This document shows positions 4,980 to 15,692 of a stretch of 64,000 nucleotides of DNA, piece by piece. The stretch is taken from positions 1 to 64,000 of the forward strand of contig QCPW01000005.1 of the NCBI GenBank assembly GCA_003209655.1, read 5' to 3'. This DNA is from Prochlorococcus sp. AG-442-M23. Its GTDB lineage: Bacteria > Cyanobacteriota > Cyanobacteriia > PCC-6307 > Cyanobiaceae. The translations under genes and the position numbers were made by a program. Numbering within the stretch: the first letter of the stretch is position 1; every line of letters begins with the position of its first letter. The notes beneath the pieces were generated by a model. It had not been told where the DNA came from and did not search any database. It saw only the letters and a list, made by a program, of their open reading frames with translations.

Positions 4980-5951
4980 TTACCAATAACAACCATCTTC
5001 AACGTTTTTGTATACCTTTTCATTAGAAGGATAAACCCAGTATTTATTATACATTTTTCTGAAATCTTCAATTTCGTCCCATCTTCTCCCTTTTATGCCA
5101 AAAAGTATTTGCACTGCTCCCCCAAGATGAATAGATTTCTTACCACCTTTTTTTAGACGAGCAGCTAATGGCATGCCATAAGCTCCGCAACCAATTATTG
5201 CTACTTCGAAATCTATTTCAAGTGCTTGGTTAGTCATTCTACTTAATATCTCAAACCAATTTTGAGACTGATAGCAACTTCCTGGATATGTAATTGGTGT
5301 TCTTAAAGTCTTTAATTCAAATTCAGGCAAAATATTTTTATTTTTAAAAAGTAGTTTTCTTTTGTTATTAAATTGACTCTCTATTATTGAAGAAAAAGGA
5401 TGAATAACCAAGACTTTTTTACCTTCAAGAGCGAGAGTCCAAGGTTTAGATGAGAAGTATGGTTCGAGCATAATTAAATCGCAGACTTTTGCTTTAGATA
5501 AATATCTTTTATATTTATTTTCTCCCTCTACCCATGAACCGAGTAAATCAATTTCTTTCATAGATCTAATCATTTCTTTTTTAAAAAGATCAATGCTTTC
5601 TTCAGAAACAGGGAAAAAACCAGAAAGTTTATGGATATTATTCAAACGACAATTTTCTGAATAAGGGTATGCAGATGTTTCTGCCCATTGATAAATTTTT
5701 TCTAATTTATTCATTTTTATAATATTTTCATATCTAAATAGCGTATTTAATTCTGTATATCCAAATCTTGAAATCATGAAGGGATTTTTATTTTTTAATT
5801 TTTCAAAAATATAAGTTGATGTTTTTTTATTTGATAAAGAATTATTTGTTATTGAAAGTAATTTTATATTTTTTGAATAGTCATATAAGTTTTTTCTAAT
5901 AAATGGTTTTAAAAAAAATCTTAAAAGCTTTCTTAATATCTTTAAAATCAT
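4980..5951 (-). CDS. GT-D-fold-like glycosyltransferase (DUF1792-like)
   Basis: A 323-aa protein whose motif FMISRFGYTEL (about residues 58-68) matches the arginine-phenylalanine-glycine-x2-glutamate signature of the GT-D glycosyltransferase fold (DUF1792 type, first described for a streptococcal adhesin glycosyltransferase). A late glycine motif, IIGCGAYGMPLA, near residue 255 followed by HLGGAVQILFGIKG is also typical of that family. No signal peptide is seen. The first 22 residues are very basic and hydrophobic and may bind the membrane. It lies 2 bp from the methyltransferase gene at 5954-6994 and is probably co-transcribed with it. Donor and acceptor are unknown. Confidence 0.7.
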   Translation of the reverse strand: MILKILRKLLRFFLKPFIRKNLYDYSKNIKLLSITNNSLSNKKTSTYIFEKLKNKNPFMISRFGYTELNTLFRYENIIKMNKLEKIYQWAETSAYPYSENCRLNNIHKLSGFFPVSEESIDLFKKEMIRSMKEIDLLGSWVEGENKYKRYLSKAKVCDLIMLEPYFSSKPWTLALEGKKVLVIHPFSSIIESQFNNKRKLLFKNKNILPEFELKTLRTPITYPGSCYQSQNWFEILSRMTNQALEIDFEVAIIGCGAYGMPLAARLKKGGKKSIHLGGAVQILFGIKGRRWDEIEDFRKMYNKYWVYPSNEKVYKNVEDGCYW

Positions 5952-6994: not shown

Positions 6995-7236
6995 AGATTT
7001 CAATTTTTAATGAAATATAAATGCATTTACCTTTAATCGTTTTGATATACCGGTATTAAACTTACATTAATATGACTTAAGCAAAATAGAAAGGAAATTA
7101 TTTGTCAGTTATTGTAAATGTTAATATTAAGCTACAATGAAATTTTTATTGGTTGATAAATCCTTAATAGAAGTTACTTATAAAATCAAAAACTTTCTTT
7201 ATTATTAAGAAATTAAGTTATAGTTGGGATCTGAAA

Positions 7237-7827
7237 TTATTCTTCTTCCCAAAATTTAACTTTCTTAGTACAAACTGCATCGAAGTACATTTTATTAGTT
7301 TTTATATAATTTTTTAAATCTAAACATGTTGTATGTGGATGACCCTGTAATTCTGGAGAAACAAAACACAATTTAAATTTATTTTTTTTTAGGATTTTAT
7401 AAATTTCAAAATCTATTGGAAATTTTGTAAAAAAATCAATCCAAACCCAACTTAATTTATCTTTTAAAGATAAAACTGTATTAATAGATTCATATTCTGA
7501 TAACCTTACGGCACATCTCTTCTCTCCAGTTTTTATTGTTTTTACAATGTATGGAAATGATTGATCAAGAATGAAAAAATTATCTTTTTTGAAATTATTC
7601 ATTGTTTTAATCAATTCTTCCTCTAAACCATCTTCTTTTACATTCAATACTAAAGTTCCATGCATATAAAAGGATAACCATTCATTAAAGTCAACGTAAT
7701 CTGAAAATGGATCATGGCCGATAATTAAATTTTTATCATTAGATCTAATATCAACTTCAACTCCTATTCTTTTATCTAAATTTTTTAGTTTATTAATAGA
7801 ATTTATTCTATGGGCAATTATTTCCAA
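7237..7827 (-). CDS. Glycerophosphodiester phosphodiesterase-like TIM-barrel protein
   Basis: A 196-aa protein with the catalytic pattern of the GDPD/PI-PLC-like superfamily in order: H6-R7 (AHR), E24 and D26 (GVEVDIR), and H38 (IGHD). It is shorter than a typical GDPD (about 240 aa) and lacks the ENT motif after the first His. The only possible start is the TTG at 7827. An in-frame ATG-TAA pair sits directly upstream at 7828-7833. It follows the GT2 gene by 11 bp, so the two are probably co-transcribed. Hydrolysis or transfer of a phosphodiester on a glycan or its precursor is inferred from fold and context. No activity is proved. Confidence 0.72.
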   Translation of the reverse strand: MEIIAHRINSINKLKNLDKRIGVEVDIRSNDKNLIIGHDPFSDYVDFNEWLSFYMHGTLVLNVKEDGLEEELIKTMNNFKKDNFFILDQSFPYIVKTIKTGEKRCAVRLSEYESINTVLSLKDKLSWVWIDFFTKFPIDFEIYKILKKNKFKLCFVSPELQGHPHTTCLDLKNYIKTNKMYFDAVCTKKVKFWEEE

Positions 7828-7838
7828 TTACATTAAAT

Positions 7839-8537
7839 TTAATTATTAAACTTTAATTTAAAGCTATATTTGATTGTCTGCAATATGAATTTAATCCTTG
7901 AAACACAATTTATATTCCATTTAGAATGCCCTGATATCCTTGGCAGAAAATCAACATTTATCCTTTTTATTTTATAATTATTTTTTTTTGCTAAGTAATA
8001 GGAATATAAATCTAAAGAAAAATCCCTAGGTGGGTTAATCCAGGAATTAAAAAATTTTTTAGGAAAAATTGTTGGTTGTGCATTAACATCGTAAATTAAT
8101 TTTCCTAGTAAAAATGTTTCAAATAAACTCATTCCAAACGTGAAAATTTGATCATAAATAGGTCTGTTCTTTCTATTACCTTTAATAAAGATATTTTGTC
8201 CTTCAGATATATTTTCATATTCTTTAAAAGCTTTAATACAATCAAGTGGATCTGTTTGAAGATCTGCATGTGTCCAGCCTATTATTTTACCTTTACAAAG
8301 ACTTAAGCCTTTTAAAATACCCCCACCATATCCAAGGTTTTTTTCTAAATTAATATATTTTGCATGGGGATATTTAATTATAAGTTCAGAAATTATGTTT
8401 TTGGTATTATCTGTTGAGCCATTATTTACAAGGATTAATTCAATCTTATTATCTACAAAAAGATTTTTTGTTCTTTCAAGTATTAATTTAATTGTTCCTT
8501 CTTCATTAAAGCAAGGAATTACTATAGAGTATTTCAT
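7839..8537 (-). CDS. GT2-family glycosyltransferase
   Basis: A GT-A-fold family 2 glycosyltransferase of 232 aa. It begins YSIVIPCFNEEGTI and has the donor-site motifs VNNGSTDNT, NLGYGGGILKGL and WTHADLQTDP. It resembles dolichol-phosphate-mannose-synthase-type GT2 enzymes (the aDLQ variant of DxD) but has no C-terminal membrane domain. The ATG at 8537 is preferred because the family motif begins right after it. The frame stays open 25 codons further up, to an ATG at 8612. The GDPD-like gene follows. Likely sugar transfer from an NDP-sugar onto a lipid carrier or growing glycan. Confidence 0.87.
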   Translation of the reverse strand: MKYSIVIPCFNEEGTIKLILERTKNLFVDNKIELILVNNGSTDNTKNIISELIIKYPHAKYINLEKNLGYGGGILKGLSLCKGKIIGWTHADLQTDPLDCIKAFKEYENISEGQNIFIKGNRKNRPIYDQIFTFGMSLFETFLLGKLIYDVNAQPTIFPKKFFNSWINPPRDFSLDLYSYYLAKKNNYKIKRINVDFLPRISGHSKWNINCVSRIKFILQTIKYSFKLKFNN

Positions 8538-8738
8538 TTTTAATCTTTTAGAAACTAATAATCTATTTATATAAGGTTTAGAATATAGCAAAGTTTTAGT
8601 AATAAAAAACAAAATATATTTTTAATTAATTATATAGAAAAGATTGATAGAAAATTTTATTAAAAAGTTATGATTTGGATATTTCAAAAAAATTCATTTA
8701 TTATCTTTTATATTAAATATAAAAAATTATCACCTTAC

Positions 8739-10325
8739 TTATTGATGTCTTTTATATGGATGATTCTCCCACCTGTTAAAGCATGATTCCCAATAATTAT
8801 AAGTTTCTAATTCATCAGGGGTTCCCCAACAAATAAAGTAATCAACTTCAAATAATGCTACTTTTAATCCAATTTCTATAGATTTATTAATTACGCTATC
8901 TACATAATATTCCCCATTTACTTTTTCCCCACTAGCAATAGTAAGTTCTGAAGAACTTAAAAAATCCTTTGCTTTTTTAAATGTAAAGGTACCTATTAAA
9001 ACATGATCTTCTCTTGGATTGTTAAGGTTTTTCTTCACTGAAATGTTAGATATATAATTTTCACTTTCATATATCCAACTATACATTTTTGGTTTTTGTT
9101 GGGCACCTGGGTATCTTTTACATCCCCATACTAAAATATCAATCTCTTTTGTAGATAAAAGTTTTTGATATTTTTTTTCATCAAAAATGACTCCCATATC
9201 ACAAGCACTTATTATTAAAGGCTTTTCAAATTTGATATCATTATCTCCCATAGCTTTTAAAGCAGTACGAGCTTGACCATCAGTATTATTTTTTAAGGTT
9301 TTTATAATCATATCTTGTTTTTTATCATTAATAATGAGCGATGGTTTTTTATTTTTAATTAATTCTTTTCTAGTAACTATTTTTATAGTTTCCATTCTAG
9401 GAAGATCATTAATTGCTCTTGCATACATTTCAGAACCTGAAATTTTAATAAATGGCTTTGGAAGTTTATATCCTTTGTCCCTAAATCTTGAACCTTCTCC
9501 AGCCATAGTAATCAACAAACAACCTTCATATATTTTTTTATCCTTATAATTTTTATTAACTATTTTTTTAAAAATATCTGAATACCAGTTGAAATCTTCT
9601 AAATCTGAAGGAGTCCCCCATTGCATAAAATAATCAATTAAAAAAGTTGTTATTTTTAGATCATCTTTTATCATAGGTTTATATGCCATAGAAACATAAA
9701 ATTCGCTGTTAACTCTAAGATCCAATAAAACTGCACTTTTAAAATATTTCAACATCAATTGACCTGATTTAAAGTAATAGGTCCCGCTTGAGACCTCTTC
9801 CATCATTGGTTTGTCAGTAAAAGGCTTTTTCTCTTGAATATCAATGACAGAATTTTTATATTTTTTAACATAAGCATAATTAGTGTTTTTTAACATATGT
9901 GGATGGAAACCTGTATAAGTGAAAACACATCCATCAGGCTTATCTTTTTTTAAATGATTAATAAAATTGGGGAAATTAAAACAAGAATTAAAATCGCAAT
10001 AGTTAACTATAGTAGGAGTAGAAGAGTCCAAGACTGATTCGGCCTCTAAAACAGCATGAATAGGTCCTTCTTTATGTGGCTTTATAGAAATAATTGTAGT
10101 TTTTGGATGTAGATTTTTTAAAATTTTGCGAAGATTTAAATTCTGATCATTTAGATGATCTTCATTACAAATGAAAATAACTCTTTCAATTTTTTCAAAC
10201 ATTTTTACTACATGATTTATTATCTCTTTACCTCTTACTTTAATTAAGGGTTTTGGAGTCTTATATCCAGCATCTTTAAATCTTTTTCCAATTCCTGACA
10301 TTGGCACAACTAGCTGTATTCTCAT
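8739..10325 (-). CDS. Tandem double-domain sugar nucleotidyltransferase
   Basis: A 528-aa protein made of two consecutive NTP_transferase domains of about 265 residues each. Domain 1 begins VVPMSGIGKRF...KTPKP and domain 2 begins ITMAGEGSRFRDKG...KLPKP; both keep the G-x-G-x-R-F and KPKP-type motifs. Each has an Asp-containing metal site (NYCDFN; SACDMG), and each ends in a near-identical DYFxxWGTPxxLE block. Single-domain relatives activate sugar phosphates to NDP-sugars. Here both halves look catalytically complete. The gene starts 5 bp after the class II aldolase gene, so the two are probably one transcription unit. The substrate is unknown. It could make two different NDP-sugars, or act as an internally duplicated dimer. 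Confidence 0.85.
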   Translation of the reverse strand: MRIQLVVPMSGIGKRFKDAGYKTPKPLIKVRGKEIINHVVKMFEKIERVIFICNEDHLNDQNLNLRKILKNLHPKTTIISIKPHKEGPIHAVLEAESVLDSSTPTIVNYCDFNSCFNFPNFINHLKKDKPDGCVFTYTGFHPHMLKNTNYAYVKKYKNSVIDIQEKKPFTDKPMMEEVSSGTYYFKSGQLMLKYFKSAVLLDLRVNSEFYVSMAYKPMIKDDLKITTFLIDYFMQWGTPSDLEDFNWYSDIFKKIVNKNYKDKKIYEGCLLITMAGEGSRFRDKGYKLPKPFIKISGSEMYARAINDLPRMETIKIVTRKELIKNKKPSLIINDKKQDMIIKTLKNNTDGQARTALKAMGDNDIKFEKPLIISACDMGVIFDEKKYQKLLSTKEIDILVWGCKRYPGAQQKPKMYSWIYESENYISNISVKKNLNNPREDHVLIGTFTFKKAKDFLSSSELTIASGEKVNGEYYVDSVINKSIEIGLKVALFEVDYFICWGTPDELETYNYWESCFNRWENHPYKRHQ

Positions 10326-10330
10326 AATTT

Positions 10331-11335
10331 CTAATTATTAATTATTTTTCTATGAATCTCTAAATCCCAATTAATTAATTCATTTTTTTCTTTCTTAGTT
10401 AAATAATTTATTGAGGCATCTTTCGGTAATCTTGAAATTACCATTGATAAACCTAACAAAGTATCTTCATTAACTTCCTTAAATGTTCTTGGAATTAGTA
10501 TCCCTACATTTGGAATTAATACAACAGGTAATTTATTAGCTTGTAATTTTGATAATTGAATAAGTTTCTCAAGTGAATTAATTATTTTTAATCCATTTTC
10601 TAGAAAAACAACTTGATCTGGGAATAAATTACCTTTTGTTGCTATTAAAGAATGTATCTTTGAGAAAGCTATTTGATGAATGTAATCATTTTTTGGTAAT
10701 TTGTATTCTTTGCATGATAGATATTTATTAAATTTTTCTAAGTCAAGACTATTTTTAGTTAACTCAGAAAAATATAGTTTTTCTGAAATACTTTTAATAA
10801 TTTCAAAAACCCTCTCAGCAGATTCTGCACCTGCAACTATCCCATGATTGCCTAACAGAATTACATCTACAATTGGTTCTCTAATTATTTTTTTAATTTG
10901 ATTAGATAAATCAATACCAGGTTTTTTATAAGGAACTGATTTCCAATTAATTCCCTTCAAAAAAATATTAATTTTTTCTTGGTAATTTTCCTGTATTACC
11001 CAGCTGAGAGTATTAACGCAGTGTACATGAAGTACGTATTTATGAGGCATTAATGCATGCATAGTTGTCTCAATTGATGGACGCAAAGGAGAATTATTGT
11101 CCCAACTATTTTTAATTGGGTCTGGTTCATTTTTTTTTATGGAAGAAATAATTTTATTGTGATCAGTTTTAACAAAAATATTTTTATTTTTAGCATCTGA
11201 CATTTTTTGACCAGAAGCTTTTATGTACATAAAGCCATTACTTTTAAAAGAAATATTACCTCCTGGTCCTTGTACAAGATTTATATCTCTACCTATTTTT
11301 TCAGTTATATTAATAAAAGATTTTGATATTTCCAA
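10331..11335 (-). CDS. Class II aldolase/adducin-family protein
   Basis: A 334-aa protein of the class II (zinc) aldolase/adducin family. The typical GPGGNISF motif is at about residue 23, IKASGQKMSDA follows, then the metal ligands HVHCVNTLSW and later LLGNHGIVAG. Members include fuculose-1-phosphate and ribulose-5-phosphate aldolases/epimerases. The length exceeds the 210-230 aa of FucA/AraD because of a C-terminal extension of about 100 residues seen in longer members of the family. The only in-frame start is the TTG at 11335. It is the first gene of a unit with the double nucleotidyltransferase, suggesting that it makes or interconverts a phosphorylated sugar or polyol that is then activated. 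Confidence 0.85.
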   Translation of the reverse strand: MEISKSFINITEKIGRDINLVQGPGGNISFKSNGFMYIKASGQKMSDAKNKNIFVKTDHNKIISSIKKNEPDPIKNSWDNNSPLRPSIETTMHALMPHKYVLHVHCVNTLSWVIQENYQEKINIFLKGINWKSVPYKKPGIDLSNQIKKIIREPIVDVILLGNHGIVAGAESAERVFEIIKSISEKLYFSELTKNSLDLEKFNKYLSCKEYKLPKNDYIHQIAFSKIHSLIATKGNLFPDQVVFLENGLKIINSLEKLIQLSKLQANKLPVVLIPNVGILIPRTFKEVNEDTLLGLSMVISRLPKDASINYLTKKEKNELINWDLEIHRKIINN

Positions 11336-12891: not shown

Positions 12892-13338
12892 TCAAATATG
12901 ACTTAGTAATTTGTATTGTGATGGCAATGGATTACTACCTTTATGAACTTCCATTAAATAATCTAATGATCTTTGTGGGGATAATTTGTGCTTTGATATA
13001 AGCCAAGCCATACATATAAGGGGAGATCTCTCAACACCAGCGTAACAATGTATGTAAATTGCACCAGAAGACTTTAATGATTCAATTATTTTAATAATTT
13101 CTTTTATTTCACAAATTTTAATTTCTTTTTTTACTTTGTGATCAGGCAATGTAAATCTTTTAAAATTAAACATTGATTTATAATTTTCGTCAATTGGAGC
13201 TTCTTTCTCATTACATAGATTTAAAATAGATTTTATATTCTTAGTAACTAAATATTCAAAGTGAGATTTCTTTAATGGAGCAGGACCAACTGCTAATTCG
13301 TTATTTAGTACCCAGTCCAGTTTAAATTTTTTTTTCAT
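12892..13338 (-). CDS. Dual-specificity protein phosphatase paired with the Wzc-type kinase
   Basis: A 148-aa phosphatase with the dual-specificity/PTP signature HCYAGVERS (nucleophile C98, phosphate-binding R104) and a candidate general acid D66 (TLPDH). The AWLI segment that follows is typical of the DSP family. The start ATG lies 2 bp after the wzc stop codon, so the two genes are almost certainly co-translated. In most bacteria the tyrosine-kinase co-polymerase is opposed by a Wzb-type low-molecular-weight phosphatase or a PHP phosphatase. Here a DSP occupies that place and probably dephosphorylates the tyrosine-rich tail of the kinase. That substrate is inferred from adjacency. Confidence 0.87.
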   Translation of the reverse strand: MKKKFKLDWVLNNELAVGPAPLKKSHFEYLVTKNIKSILNLCNEKEAPIDENYKSMFNFKRFTLPDHKVKKEIKICEIKEIIKIIESLKSSGAIYIHCYAGVERSPLICMAWLISKHKLSPQRSLDYLMEVHKGSNPLPSQYKLLSHI

Positions 13339-13340
13339 TT

Positions 13341-15692
13341 TTAATCATCTAGCCATTTAATGCTTTTATCAAAAATAATTTTTAGTTTCTCAAAAAATAA
13401 ATCTTTTACTCTATTTAATTGATTATTTTTTTCTCTCATCTTCTTTGCAGCGATAGCACCAGCATCCTTTTCTTCTGAATCTTCATTAGAACTATCTCCA
13501 TAAGTACTATATGCAGCATAAGCATAATCCTCATAACCATTGCTCAAAATATTTTTAGACTCCTTTTTAACTGCATTTGAAATAATTCCTAAAAAATTAG
13601 TACCACTTCTTATTGATCTATTAATAGATTCTTTTGGTAGATTTTTATTTACTGAATTAGTACTTACTAATAGAATAAGGCCATCAGATTTTTCAGAGAC
13701 TAATAATGAGTCGGCGAGACCAATTACTGGAGGTGTATCAAAAACTATTAAATCATATTTTTCACTTTCTTTAATTTCTTTGATAAAAGTTCTCATTTTT
13801 TCAGAATTTAAAAGTCTTGTAGGATCAGGTGGCTTAGTTCCTGAAGTTATAACATCCCAGTTTTTAAAACCTGGAACTGATTGAATTACGTCTGGAATTG
13901 TCAAATCTGAATTTGTAAGTAAATTTGATAGACCAGTAAGGTTATTCAAACCTAAGCGTAAATGAATTTGAGGTTTTCTTAAATCAGCATCAATTTGCAA
14001 TATTTTTAAATCCATCTCACTCAAAGTTTTTGATAATAAAATATTAATTAAAGACTTTCCCTCTTTAGGAACAGAACTTGTCATAGTAATAACTTTTATT
14101 GGATTATCACTATTGAGAAATCTTAGAGAAGTATATATGTTCCTAAGGGACTCTTGATAAAAAAATTTATCATAAGAATCTATGTTTTCATTTTTGTTAA
14201 TTAGTGATATATCATCAACTATTGATTTTTTTTCCTCTCTTAAATCTCTAAAGTATTCCACGTAAGGGACATGACCTAAAAATGGATACTTCAATTCATT
14301 TCTCACTTCCTCAGCCGAGTGAAAAACATTGTCAAATTTATCTCTTAAAAGAGCCAAAGCTAAAGCAATAAAAAATGAAATTATAGAGGCTTTAGTTAAT
14401 TCATTTGCATAACTGGGGTATATTCGAGAAGCCAAAAAACGTGGAGCTTTTATTACAGTCCAAGGCGAACTATCTTGTGCGAGTTCTAACTGAAGTTGCT
14501 CTTTGGCAGAGCTTATCCCTGCAAGATTATTTGTGGAACTTTGTAATTCAAAAACTATTGCACCATATTTATTAATTTCAACTAGTAAATCATCAAATTT
14601 CTTTGCTAAATTAGATAAATTTAATTTTTTAAGTTTAATATTATCTTCAGAAGATTTAATAGCAATATCAATTCCCTTTAACTGCTTTTCTTTGACTTTA
14701 GGTTTTAATTCTTTTAATCTAGCCTTTATATTTCTAACAATGTATGAATTTGGAGTATAAACCAGCAGTGCATCTGCAAGCTGTTCATTTAATTCTGTCA
14801 CTTGTGCATTTAATTTTTCTTCAGGATTTGTTACTTCGACAGAACCTGCACCTGCCTCCCCTACTAATTCTATAAATTTAGCAGAATTTAACTTTCCTAA
14901 TAAGATATCTTTTTTGATATTTTTTAATCTTTCTATACTTATTTCTAATCTCGAAATTTCACTCTTAATTTCATCGATGTCTTTTTTTAATTTTAATCCT
15001 TCATCTGAAGGGTTAACAAAATTATTTTCTCTTCTAAAGTTTTCTAGTTTTTCTAATAATTGACTGTTTTTTTTCCTTATCGCAGGTTCTTGAGCACTTA
15101 GAAAAGTTAAACCATCAGATAATTTCTTTTGCATTCTTTGTGAAGCATAGTTTACATAAAAAATACTAAGTTCCTCCAGCAATTCTTGATCATTTTTTGG
15201 GTTTTTACTTTGCAAGCTAAATTCTAAAATCCCTTTAGCAGACTTGTCTTTTTTAATATTTATTCTGTCTGATAAAGATTTTGGTTTAAGATTATATTTA
15301 GCAGAAATATCTTTTAAAACCAAATCACTTAATAACACTTCTCTTAGGGTTGGGATATCTTGTTCATAATCCGGACTAGTAGATCCTATAAAATTTTGAG
15401 CTGCTGAAAGAATATTTCCAGAAATAGTACTTGTCCCAGATATTTGTTTAATAGGATCTATTACTAGTATTGAAAACTCCCCTTTAAAAATAGGATTATA
15501 AATTTTTTCCTTTGTTGTTCGTAATAAACTAAAAGATGTAGATATTATTAAAGCTAATATAAAAAATCTCTTTCTCCTTAAAATAAGGCTAAGTAAAAAA
15601 TCAATAGAAGTTTTTTCTTCAGAATCTGAATTTATAAATAATTGTGAATGATTAATTTCTTCATTAGAATTATTTTGGGGTTTGTTATTCAA
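13341..15692 (-). CDS. wzc: Wzc-like polysaccharide co-polymerase with BY-kinase domain
   Basis: A 783-aa inner-membrane chain-length regulator and tyrosine autokinase. TM1 is about residues 42-58 (RRKRFFILALIISTSFS). A long periplasmic region with coiled-coil stretches (about 210-380) follows, then TM2 near 430-447 (ASIISFFIALALALL). The cytoplasmic BY-kinase has Walker A SSVPKEGKS (about 540), Walker A' LQIDADLRKP and Walker B IVFDTPPV (about 652). A tyrosine cluster, YEDYAYAAYSTY, lies near 722-735, followed by a charged tail. The frame forces a TTG start at 15692. It is divergent from wza across 80 bp and is followed at once by the phosphatase gene. Controls polymerisation and export of the surface glycan. 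Confidence 0.93.
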   Translation of the reverse strand: MNNKPQNNSNEEINHSQLFINSDSEEKTSIDFLLSLILRRKRFFILALIISTSFSLLRTTKEKIYNPIFKGEFSILVIDPIKQISGTSTISGNILSAAQNFIGSTSPDYEQDIPTLREVLLSDLVLKDISAKYNLKPKSLSDRINIKKDKSAKGILEFSLQSKNPKNDQELLEELSIFYVNYASQRMQKKLSDGLTFLSAQEPAIRKKNSQLLEKLENFRRENNFVNPSDEGLKLKKDIDEIKSEISRLEISIERLKNIKKDILLGKLNSAKFIELVGEAGAGSVEVTNPEEKLNAQVTELNEQLADALLVYTPNSYIVRNIKARLKELKPKVKEKQLKGIDIAIKSSEDNIKLKKLNLSNLAKKFDDLLVEINKYGAIVFELQSSTNNLAGISSAKEQLQLELAQDSSPWTVIKAPRFLASRIYPSYANELTKASIISFFIALALALLRDKFDNVFHSAEEVRNELKYPFLGHVPYVEYFRDLREEKKSIVDDISLINKNENIDSYDKFFYQESLRNIYTSLRFLNSDNPIKVITMTSSVPKEGKSLINILLSKTLSEMDLKILQIDADLRKPQIHLRLGLNNLTGLSNLLTNSDLTIPDVIQSVPGFKNWDVITSGTKPPDPTRLLNSEKMRTFIKEIKESEKYDLIVFDTPPVIGLADSLLVSEKSDGLILLVSTNSVNKNLPKESINRSIRSGTNFLGIISNAVKKESKNILSNGYEDYAYAAYSTYGDSSNEDSEEKDAGAIAAKKMREKNNQLNRVKDLFFEKLKIIFDKSIKWLDD

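Follow-up and report, generated by a model that had tools for sequence, protein, structure and literature searches.

The question raised by this locus is what four adjacent genes, encoding an aldolase, a double nucleotidyltransferase (NTase), a GT2 glycosyltransferase and a protein resembling glycerophosphodiester phosphodiesterases (GDPDs), accomplish together in the surface-glycan island of a Prochlorococcus-like genome. The genes belong to Prochlorococcus sp. AG-442-M23 (GCA_003209655.1; 1.63 Mb in 27 contigs, 97.8% complete) and lie on contig QCPW01000005.1, of which positions 1-64,000 of the forward strand, a stretch of 64,000 nucleotides with glycan genes of many kinds, are referred to here as the window. 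The answer that we favour, with a probability of roughly 0.68, is that they are what remains of a module of seven genes, probably spread horizontally, which would make a rare sugar and attach it. The features of the locus are the following:

10331 to 11335, minus strand: class II (FucA/RhaD-type) aldolase of 334 amino acids (aa), predicted, with a TTG start (PF00596, E 1.2e-16).
8739 to 10325, minus strand: tandem NTase of 528 aa with two domains (NTP_transf_3 in two stretches by Pfam, E 5.8e-11).
9576 to 10325, minus strand: first NTase domain, approximately residues 1-250 (Pfam, predicted structure, Z 25.1 to the solved structure 4evw, signature residues).
8739 to 9533, minus strand: second NTase domain, approximately residues 265-528 (predicted structure, signature residues).
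7839 to 8537, minus strand: GT2 of the polyprenyl-phosphate glycosyltransferase type, with a DPMS/ArnC/GtrB-like catalytic domain, 232 aa (Glycos_transf_2, E 4.1e-25).
7237 to 7827, minus strand: GDPD-like putative TIM-barrel phosphodiesterase, 196 aa (predicted fold, HR / E-x-D / H motif).
7128 to 7236, minus strand: deletion scar, in which the decayed start of a GT-C/kinase gene is joined to sequence that lies behind a HAD gene in relatives (comparison with relatives).

All four open reading frames (ORFs) are intact on the minus strand, where an earlier interpretation of this DNA, made from the letters alone and called here the sequence-only reading, had placed them in this order, with gaps of 5 bp between the aldolase and NTase genes and 11 bp between the GT2 and GDPD-like genes. 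The gap between the NTase and GT2 genes is approximately 200 bp when counted from the ATG at 8537, the likely start of a GT2 ORF that is readable from 8612 (7839-8612).

The co-occurrence of these genes was surveyed in 300 evenly drawn genomes of the family, the genome handles indicating the same draw for the GDPD-like and NTase searches. The GDPD-like gene is found in 17 of the 300 genomes and an NTase match at E <= 0.001 in 43, of which 18 reach E <= 1e-20 (three of these match one domain only). All 17 genomes with the GDPD-like gene are among these 18, with the two genes 0.2-3.7 kb apart (hypergeometric P ~8e-27, for a cut-off of E <= 1e-20 that was picked after the list was seen); against all 43 NTase genomes, the P value is ~2e-16. 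Stretches from 20 of these family genomes were inspected, and six of them (L054-L059) continue with two more genes, which, as read in L054, encode a ~690-aa protein, whose membrane part resembles GT87 and whose C-terminal part is a kinase, and a HAD phosphatase.

Beyond the family, a scan of the genomes of 84,980 species with a GDPD-like alignment returned 266 coding stretches, the best 80 of which were kept. Profiles of the seven genes were counted in 57 loci with at least 6 kb on both sides, 23 of the 80 being left out as too short. A GT-C-like membrane protein fused to a phosphoribulokinase (PRK)-family kinase, abbreviated here as GTK, is present in 56 of the 57 loci, the HAD phosphatase in 56, the double NTase in 53, the aldolase in 52, the GT2 in 51 and GtrA (PF04138, the GtrA/DPMS membrane domain) in 40. 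The unit is seven genes: aldolase, double NTase, GT2, GDPD-like, GtrA, GTK and HAD phosphatase. The four-gene unit of the sequence-only reading is thereby replaced, GTK and HAD having gone by deletion in the window and GtrA being absent, and the co-occurrence in other genomes that the same reading had proposed as a check was borne out, both in the family and in distant bacteria. The wealth of glycan genes in this island might suggest a chance assortment in a hypervariable region, but this is contradicted by the 17 co-occurrences out of 17 and by the same gene set in distant bacteria, which leave it a practically negligible probability.

The commonest gene order is NTase-GtrA-GT2-GDPD-GTK-HAD-aldolase (26/57), an aldolase-first variant is found in 7/57, and, with starts chosen mechanically, five of the seven pairs of neighbours seen most often have a median gap of -4 bp. 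The kinase domain of GTK matches PRK with E values from 8.9e-34 to 8.3e-37 in seven of the eight homologues tested, and the Walker lysine is found in 60 of 66 aligned kinase rows. The exception is the Prochlorococcus copy L084; together with L054, whose kinase reaches only E 0.2, it indicates that the kinase has diverged in the clade of the window itself. In L054:10844-12901 and L084:10576-12636 the gene is intact, yet Pfam no longer clearly recognises its kinase domain, which would fit a kinase step that had already become less important by the time the lineage of the window lost the gene.

With regard to its distribution, the GDPD-like tree holds rows from eight phyla (as given by the titles of the submitters), and its cyanobacterial rows require three label changes that are forced by starred branches. 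The module is also carried on plasmids, namely an E. coli IncR plasmid and plasmids of Azospirillum and Hirschia, the last in rearranged form. A complete module is present on plasmid p5 of Azospirillum brasilense (L076), and Polynucleobacter is another of the bacterial carriers. A chromosomal module in E. coli was not borne out, as the first four genes of the plasmid module match in 2 of 5426 genomes, both times on a plasmid. It seems likely from these data that the module has spread horizontally between lineages, label changes alone being no proof of transfer. Within the genus, Prochlorococcus marinus MIT 9401 (L092) keeps the module except for an adjacent GtrA.

The window copy has lost part of this unit. 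DNA identity to L054, L082 and L084 (81-85%) ends just behind the GDPD-like gene and resumes behind the HAD gene, and the stretch from 10915 to 13795 of L054 (2,880 bp) is missing in the window assembly, which removes GTK and HAD. The deletion junction lies between ~7128 and ~7188, and the start of the GTK gene persists as a scar with insertions and deletions. Among 249 genomes drawn from the genus, both flanks are found in four others (G270, G385, G432 and G444), 2.7-2.9 kb apart; the gene content between the flanks was read only in G270 (L054), with GTK and HAD likewise present in L082-L084, which are named relatives. The deletion is not seen in the relatives of the window and, as the window nests in their clade in the GDPD-like tree (support 100/99), the loss is derived. 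Elsewhere in the same genome, GTK gave no match at E 0.1, in a search without a positive control, and HAD gave only a weak paralogue (85 residues, E 2.4e-5). No GtrA of the kind found in Gtr-type decoration occurs in the window, two PF04138 matches lying on other contigs of the genome, and GtrA is also absent from the operon in the clade of the window (L082, L084, L054). The membrane GT-C of Gtr-type decoration, present in all but one of the related loci, is missing from the window cassette as well. Since GtrA, the GT-C/kinase and HAD are all absent, the window copy appears to be a truncated derivative, which would be either decaying or borrowing the missing functions from other loci.

That the four genes are by now a remnant without present function in this strain is a considerable possibility, if somewhat short of even odds. 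In addition to the loss of GTK and HAD, the decayed GTK start and the lack of a GTK match elsewhere in the genome, the branch of the window in the GDPD-like tree is longer than that of its sister (0.18 vs 0.078). The dN/dS ratio, which ranges overall from 0.13 to 0.31 in pairs that include the window and from 0.09 to 0.22 between complete relatives, is raised for the GDPD-like gene (0.20-0.31 vs 0.15-0.21) and for the GT2 gene (0.13-0.20 vs 0.09-0.12). Against a remnant speak the four intact ORFs and the ratios for the aldolase and NTase genes, which are equal with and without the window (0.18-0.22 vs 0.19-0.22), although such branch averages are compatible with a recent loss of function.

The individual proteins can be assigned with different degrees of precision. 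The aldolase matches PF00596 with 61.5 bits (cut-off 22.2), a family that includes aldolases, epimerases, dehydratases and decarboxylases. Glu89, His103, His105 and His164, as well as the phosphate-loop residues, are kept in at least 93% of 67 aligned rows; we take E89 to be the catalytic glutamate and H103, H105 and H164 to bind zinc, roles carried over from FucA. Family profile and residues point to a class II aldolase, with predicted aldol activity. The sequence-only reading, which a role of the aldolase in central metabolism only would have undone, is supported in that this gene is the sole PF00596 match of the genome and is located in the glycan island.

The double NTase has two MobA-like stretches by Pfam and a predicted structure with a pLDDT of 92.3, whose best solved fold match is 4evw, from Vibrio, an entry with the title nucleoside-diphosphate-sugar pyrophosphorylase; GlmU and other sugar-1-phosphate enzymes are also among the best matches (structural-alignment Z scores serve here, as for the GDPD-like model, only to rank the Foldseek matches listed, and say nothing on families outside that list). 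The signature of domain 1 (G11, G13, R15, K25, D111, K166) is complete in 33/33 close homologues and in 9/15 of a wider set, and that of domain 2 (G276, G278, R280, K290, D376, K431) in 33/33 close and 15/15 wider homologues. For the wider family, a rule that both NTase sites must be active is rejected, as the other six have lost part of the domain 1 signature.

The GT2 has dolichol-P-mannose synthase as its nearest solved relative (5mlz, E 1.2e-10), followed by chondroitin synthase (1e-9), ArnC (1.8e-8) and the GtrB-type sll0501 (1.3e-7), and these matches to DPMS, ArnC and GtrB suggest a polyprenyl-phosphate-type enzyme as in Gtr-type decoration. The 196-aa protein is assigned on its predicted structure and conserved HR / E-x-D / H motif and not on Pfam: the window protein has no match to the GDPD family PF03009, and its best tested relative stays below threshold (E 0.0055, 17.3 bits vs a gathering cut-off of 23.6). 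The model, built from a 45-sequence alignment, has a mean pLDDT of 95.6. Up to E 0.001 Foldseek lists 19 rows, each of them a GDPD, and 2pz0 (Z 18.3, rmsd 2.3, 182 aligned residues) shares its rank with other GDPDs and with two entries that bear the title beta-1,3(4)-glucanase. H6, R7, E24, D26 and H38 show no variation among 45 close homologues and in 16/16 of a wider set, and align with the HR/E-x-D/HD region of the solved GDPDs 1o1z and 2pz0. By fold and motif the protein is GDPD-like, and phosphodiesterase activity is predicted.

From this gene set the following pathway may be proposed. The class II aldolase would produce a ketose phosphate, and the PRK-family kinase and the HAD phosphatase would move or trim its phosphates. 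The double NTase and the GDPD-like protein would then convert the result into a sugar activated with a nucleotide; this sugar is most likely a ketose, for example a pentulose. The GT2 and GtrA would load it onto polyprenyl phosphate, and the GT-C-like (GT87/ALG3-like) membrane protein would transfer it, beyond the inner membrane, to a glycan of the cell surface. Gene content and order, conservation, motifs, predicted folds and the missing stretch are observed; from these, all reactions, the class of sugar and a surface glycan as acceptor are inferred. A nucleotide-activated ketose is the best guess because most front-end families handle ketose phosphates, and an NDP-activated product is the natural reading because the partner is a polyprenyl-phosphate-type GT2 or a viral TAGT-like glycosyltransferase. 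The earlier proposal of an NDP-activated sugar or polyol route thus keeps its product and loses the four genes as its whole unit. A phosphodiester in the surface glycan, which had also been expected, is not indicated, because the GDPD-like gene travels with the synthesis genes and is kept in viral stretches without lipid-linked transfer genes. The proposed pathway is favoured by viral contigs that separate the two halves and carry synthesis genes without transfer genes in the stretch seen.

Several points weigh against this pathway. A simple scheme leaves the second NTase domain and the GDPD-like enzyme unaccounted for, and the fusion of the kinase to a membrane GT-C-like part would be odd if the kinase acts early. 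The GT87 and ALG3 matches of that membrane part are both weak, near or below the cut-off, and the domain 1 signature is partly lost in the six wider relatives L061, L063 and L064-L067. Five of the 57 loci are without a GT2 match and yet keep the aldolase, NTase, GDPD-like, GTK and HAD genes, other loci among the 57 are without the aldolase or the NTase, and the 80 loci, being the best of 266, favour close copies of the window type. In the literature, the cluster of the Yersinia O:10 O-antigen, which has an L-xylulose side chain, lists none of the module genes in the passages that describe it (PMC11380512).

A heptose-like route deserves a tentative hearing as an alternative, being possible if clearly not the better bet. 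The aldolase would yield a ketose-1-phosphate, the kinase would add a second phosphate, HAD would remove the first and one NTase domain would activate the product, the other domain being structural, regulatory or responsible for a second donor and the GDPD-like protein repairing side products. The combination of kinase, HAD and NTase matches the logic of GDP-heptose synthesis, two solved proteins titled '6-deoxy-D-mannoheptose pathway' (6jq8 and 5xhw) are among the NTase profile matches, the viral version has HAD and PRK in a single protein, and the incomplete domain 1 signature in six of 15 wider relatives means that not every variant needs both sites to be active. However, the signature is complete in both domains of all 33 close homologues, and the double NTase and GDPD-like genes occur together where kinase and HAD were not found (L061, L063, L165). 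The kinase of heptose activation is of the GHMP or PfkB type; no such sugar kinase was found here, the kinase belonging to the PRK family in seven of the eight related loci tested.

It is unlikely that the product is instead a polyol- or ketose-phosphate activated as a CDP-polyol (compare CDP-ribitol and CDP-6-glucitol) and transferred with its phosphate, with polymer phosphodiesters trimmed or recycled by the GDPD-like protein. The NTase passes the cut-off of IspD (PF01128) narrowly, over residues 4-59 only (27.9 vs 27 bits), LicC and inositol-phosphate cytidylyltransferase are among its profile and fold matches, the front ends resemble ketose-phosphate enzymes, and passages on C. jejuni HS:5 describe the activation of fructose-6-P with CTP (PMC10918830). 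Nevertheless, the GT2 is of the polyprenyl-phosphate hexosyltransferase type, no reductase is found among the seven genes, the GDPD-like gene is also present in viral contigs that apparently have DNA as the acceptor, and the best NTase folds are 4evw and sugar-1-phosphate enzymes such as GlmU. No full-length match of the single-domain IspD/TarI type was found for the double-domain NTase, and its scores stayed below the cut-off of every NCBIfam model.

The double NTase and the GDPD-like protein mostly stay together across differing front ends. In L061, L063 and the type II viral contigs listed below, this core is accompanied by ribulose-phosphate 3-epimerase (RPE), an isomerase-like TIM barrel and dehydrogenases. 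There are exceptions: L060 (genome G129) has the NTase and no GDPD-like match, Scandinavium L077 has GDPD-like and HAD genes with only a single-domain NTase relative ~4.8 kb away, and the picocyanobacterial L068-L070 have split NTases, one of which has a decayed signature in L068. Other arrangements are found as well. In L062:10828-14709, a fusion of 1293 aa joins a uridine-kinase/PRK-like part (weak, E 0.011), a class II FBA-like barrel and RPE, and adjoins the double NTase and GDPD-like genes, and in L060 the kinase-like and FBA-like parts are in one protein and RPE is separate. This fusion and the front ends of L061, L063 and the type II contigs likewise come from families that handle ketose phosphates or sugar isomers, in favour of the proposed pathway. 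The picocyanobacterial L064-L067 hold HAD, the double NTase, a further NTase-like protein and the GDPD-like gene, the first half of the NTase being without part of the signature.

A more speculative and distinctly improbable idea is that the double NTase and the GDPD-like protein form a new route that activates ketoses at the anomeric carbon via a 1,2-cyclic phosphate and supplies the same kind of donor for surface glycans and for phage DNA. One NTase domain would nucleotidylate a ketose-1-phosphate, and attack by the anomeric hydroxyl would give the 1,2-cyclic phosphate; the GDPD-like protein would form or open the cycle to give a ketose-2-phosphate, from which the other NTase domain would make the NDP-ketose. 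The core would be fed by interchangeable front ends, and the acceptors would be polyprenyl phosphate and surface glycans in bacteria and hydroxymethylated cytosine in phage DNA. The incomplete domain 1 signature in six of 15 wider relatives makes this route less probable and the heptose-like alternative more probable.

The viral relatives of the module are found in six uncultivated viral contigs of IMG/VR, which carry the synthesis half and represent four genotypes by NTase identity. They fall into two types:

Type I (L166/L167, L181, L182): dCMP-hydroxymethylase-like, GDPD-like, fusion of HAD and PRK-family kinase, aldolase, double NTase, TAGT-like, C5-methylase.
Type II (L164/L165): thymidylate-synthase-family, xylose-isomerase-like TIM barrel, two Zn-dehydrogenases, RPE, double NTase, GDPD-like, TAGT.

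The first gene of the operon is seen in five of the six contigs, L181 beginning just before the GDPD-like gene. The closest match of this gene in L167 is T4 dCMP hydroxymethylase (E 2.6e-63), and the L167 protein retains the Asp at which the 6l18 row deviates and which we take to be D179. The TAGT match passes the Pfam cut-off in L165 (E 2.3e-11) and does not in L167 (E 7.6e-4); the matches in the other contigs come from a profile built from these two. No GT2, GtrA or GT-C is found in the stretches seen of the six contigs, where the GTK matches correspond to the kinase of the HAD-PRK fusion, and no match to the hydroxymethylase or TAGT is found in the 80 bacterial loci. As the synthesis half lies beside dCMP-hydroxymethylase-like and TAGT-like genes, a related donor may decorate phage DNA, and hydroxymethylated DNA may, judging by gene company, be the viral acceptor. 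The operons at L167:9294-16279 and L165:4106-11447 are compact, apparently DNA-modifying, and have the sugar-activation core in common with the bacterial module.

Other contigs of the viral collection differ in content: L162 and L163 hold the seven bacterial genes and may be host DNA, L185-L187 have an NTase relative and a weak GT2 match, and L053 has none of the module genes. In the collection of named phages, the window GDPD-like protein has no match at E 0.01, and an NTase relative is present in 19 records, 18 of them Synechococcus phages. Two of these phages were examined further: an aldolase relative is present in Bellamy and a weak HAD relative in S-CAM9, with a GDPD-like match in neither. 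In L078:6001-9303 (Synechococcus phage Bellamy), the double NTase and the class II aldolase relative lie among glycosyl- and methyltransferases, with no GDPD-like match in the stretch seen.

To our knowledge, the known systems nearest in plan are the Gtr operons and heptose activation, neither of which has the enzyme set of the module. Gtr-type O-antigen glucosylation (GtrA, GtrB, GtrC) resembles it in the polyprenyl-phosphate-type GT2, GtrA, the branch-adding membrane glycosyltransferase and the mobile operon. The known Gtr operon borrows UDP-glucose, whereas the module brings its own sugar-synthesis genes and has its GT-C-like part fused to a PRK-family kinase. GDP/ADP-heptose synthesis has the same logic of kinase, HAD phosphatase and NTase, but the module has a class II aldolase front end, a PRK-family kinase, a double NTase and an additional GDPD-like protein. 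CDP-polyol routes (TarIJ; C. jejuni HS5.18/HS5.17) share the likely chemistry, nucleotidyl transfer to a ketose-derived phosphate, and differ from the module in its double NTase, DPMS-type GT2 and lack of a reductase. With GDPDs, the module protein shares the predicted fold and the HR/E-x-D/H catalytic motif; at 196 aa, it differs in having no Pfam match at threshold and in accompanying sugar-activation genes.

As in phage DNA glycosylation (T-even glucosylation, RB69-type arabinosylation), the viral relatives pair the synthesis half with dCMP-hydroxymethylase-like and TAGT-like genes; they differ in their front ends, which are aldolase and HAD-PRK, or isomerase-like, dehydrogenases and RPE, in each case with the double NTase and GDPD-like genes. 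The passages seen on the arabinose DNA modification of RB69 and Mosigvirus describe a cluster of isomerase, epimerase, kinase and NTP-transferase whose pathway is uncharacterised (PMC6024577, PMC13390438), and those on phage Thanatos describe a UDP-xylose pyrophosphorylase in a pentose modification (PMC12838424). The viral operons may be distantly related to these sugar genes.

With regard to the sugar itself, xylulose was considered as a module sugar already known from the literature and was set aside, as the Yersinia O:10 cluster, in the passages describing it, is without these genes (PMC11380512); the passages on another xylulose O-antigen give no cluster detail (PMC10072801). A pentulose is accordingly only suggested, since no known xylulose cluster was found with the module genes. 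No description of the module and no named pathway with the four genes together was found in the open-licence PMC literature, as judged by titles, in agreement with what the sequence-only reading had stated.

The 266 relatives of the GDPD-like marker come from one genome collection and, among the best 80, are mostly found in the same module; bacteria of several phyla may therefore display such a rare sugar. The viral version, if true, would amount to a chemistry of DNA modification supplied by a related donor. The module is compact and can be divided into its two halves, and MIT 9401 has a near-complete copy, so that the sugar should be within reach of ordinary biochemistry; the window copy, for which assays of the purified proteins had been suggested, is a truncated case and a poor first choice.

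Two further observations concern other parts of the window. A dual-specificity-type phosphatase (PF00782) at 12892-13338 adjoins a chain-length/tyrosine-kinase-like protein at 13341-15692, and a homologous pair is found in L060:697-3582. At 4980-5951, a GT-D-fold match just under the Pfam cut-off (26.8 vs 27) adjoins a methyltransferase-type gene and is not found at the matching place in L054.

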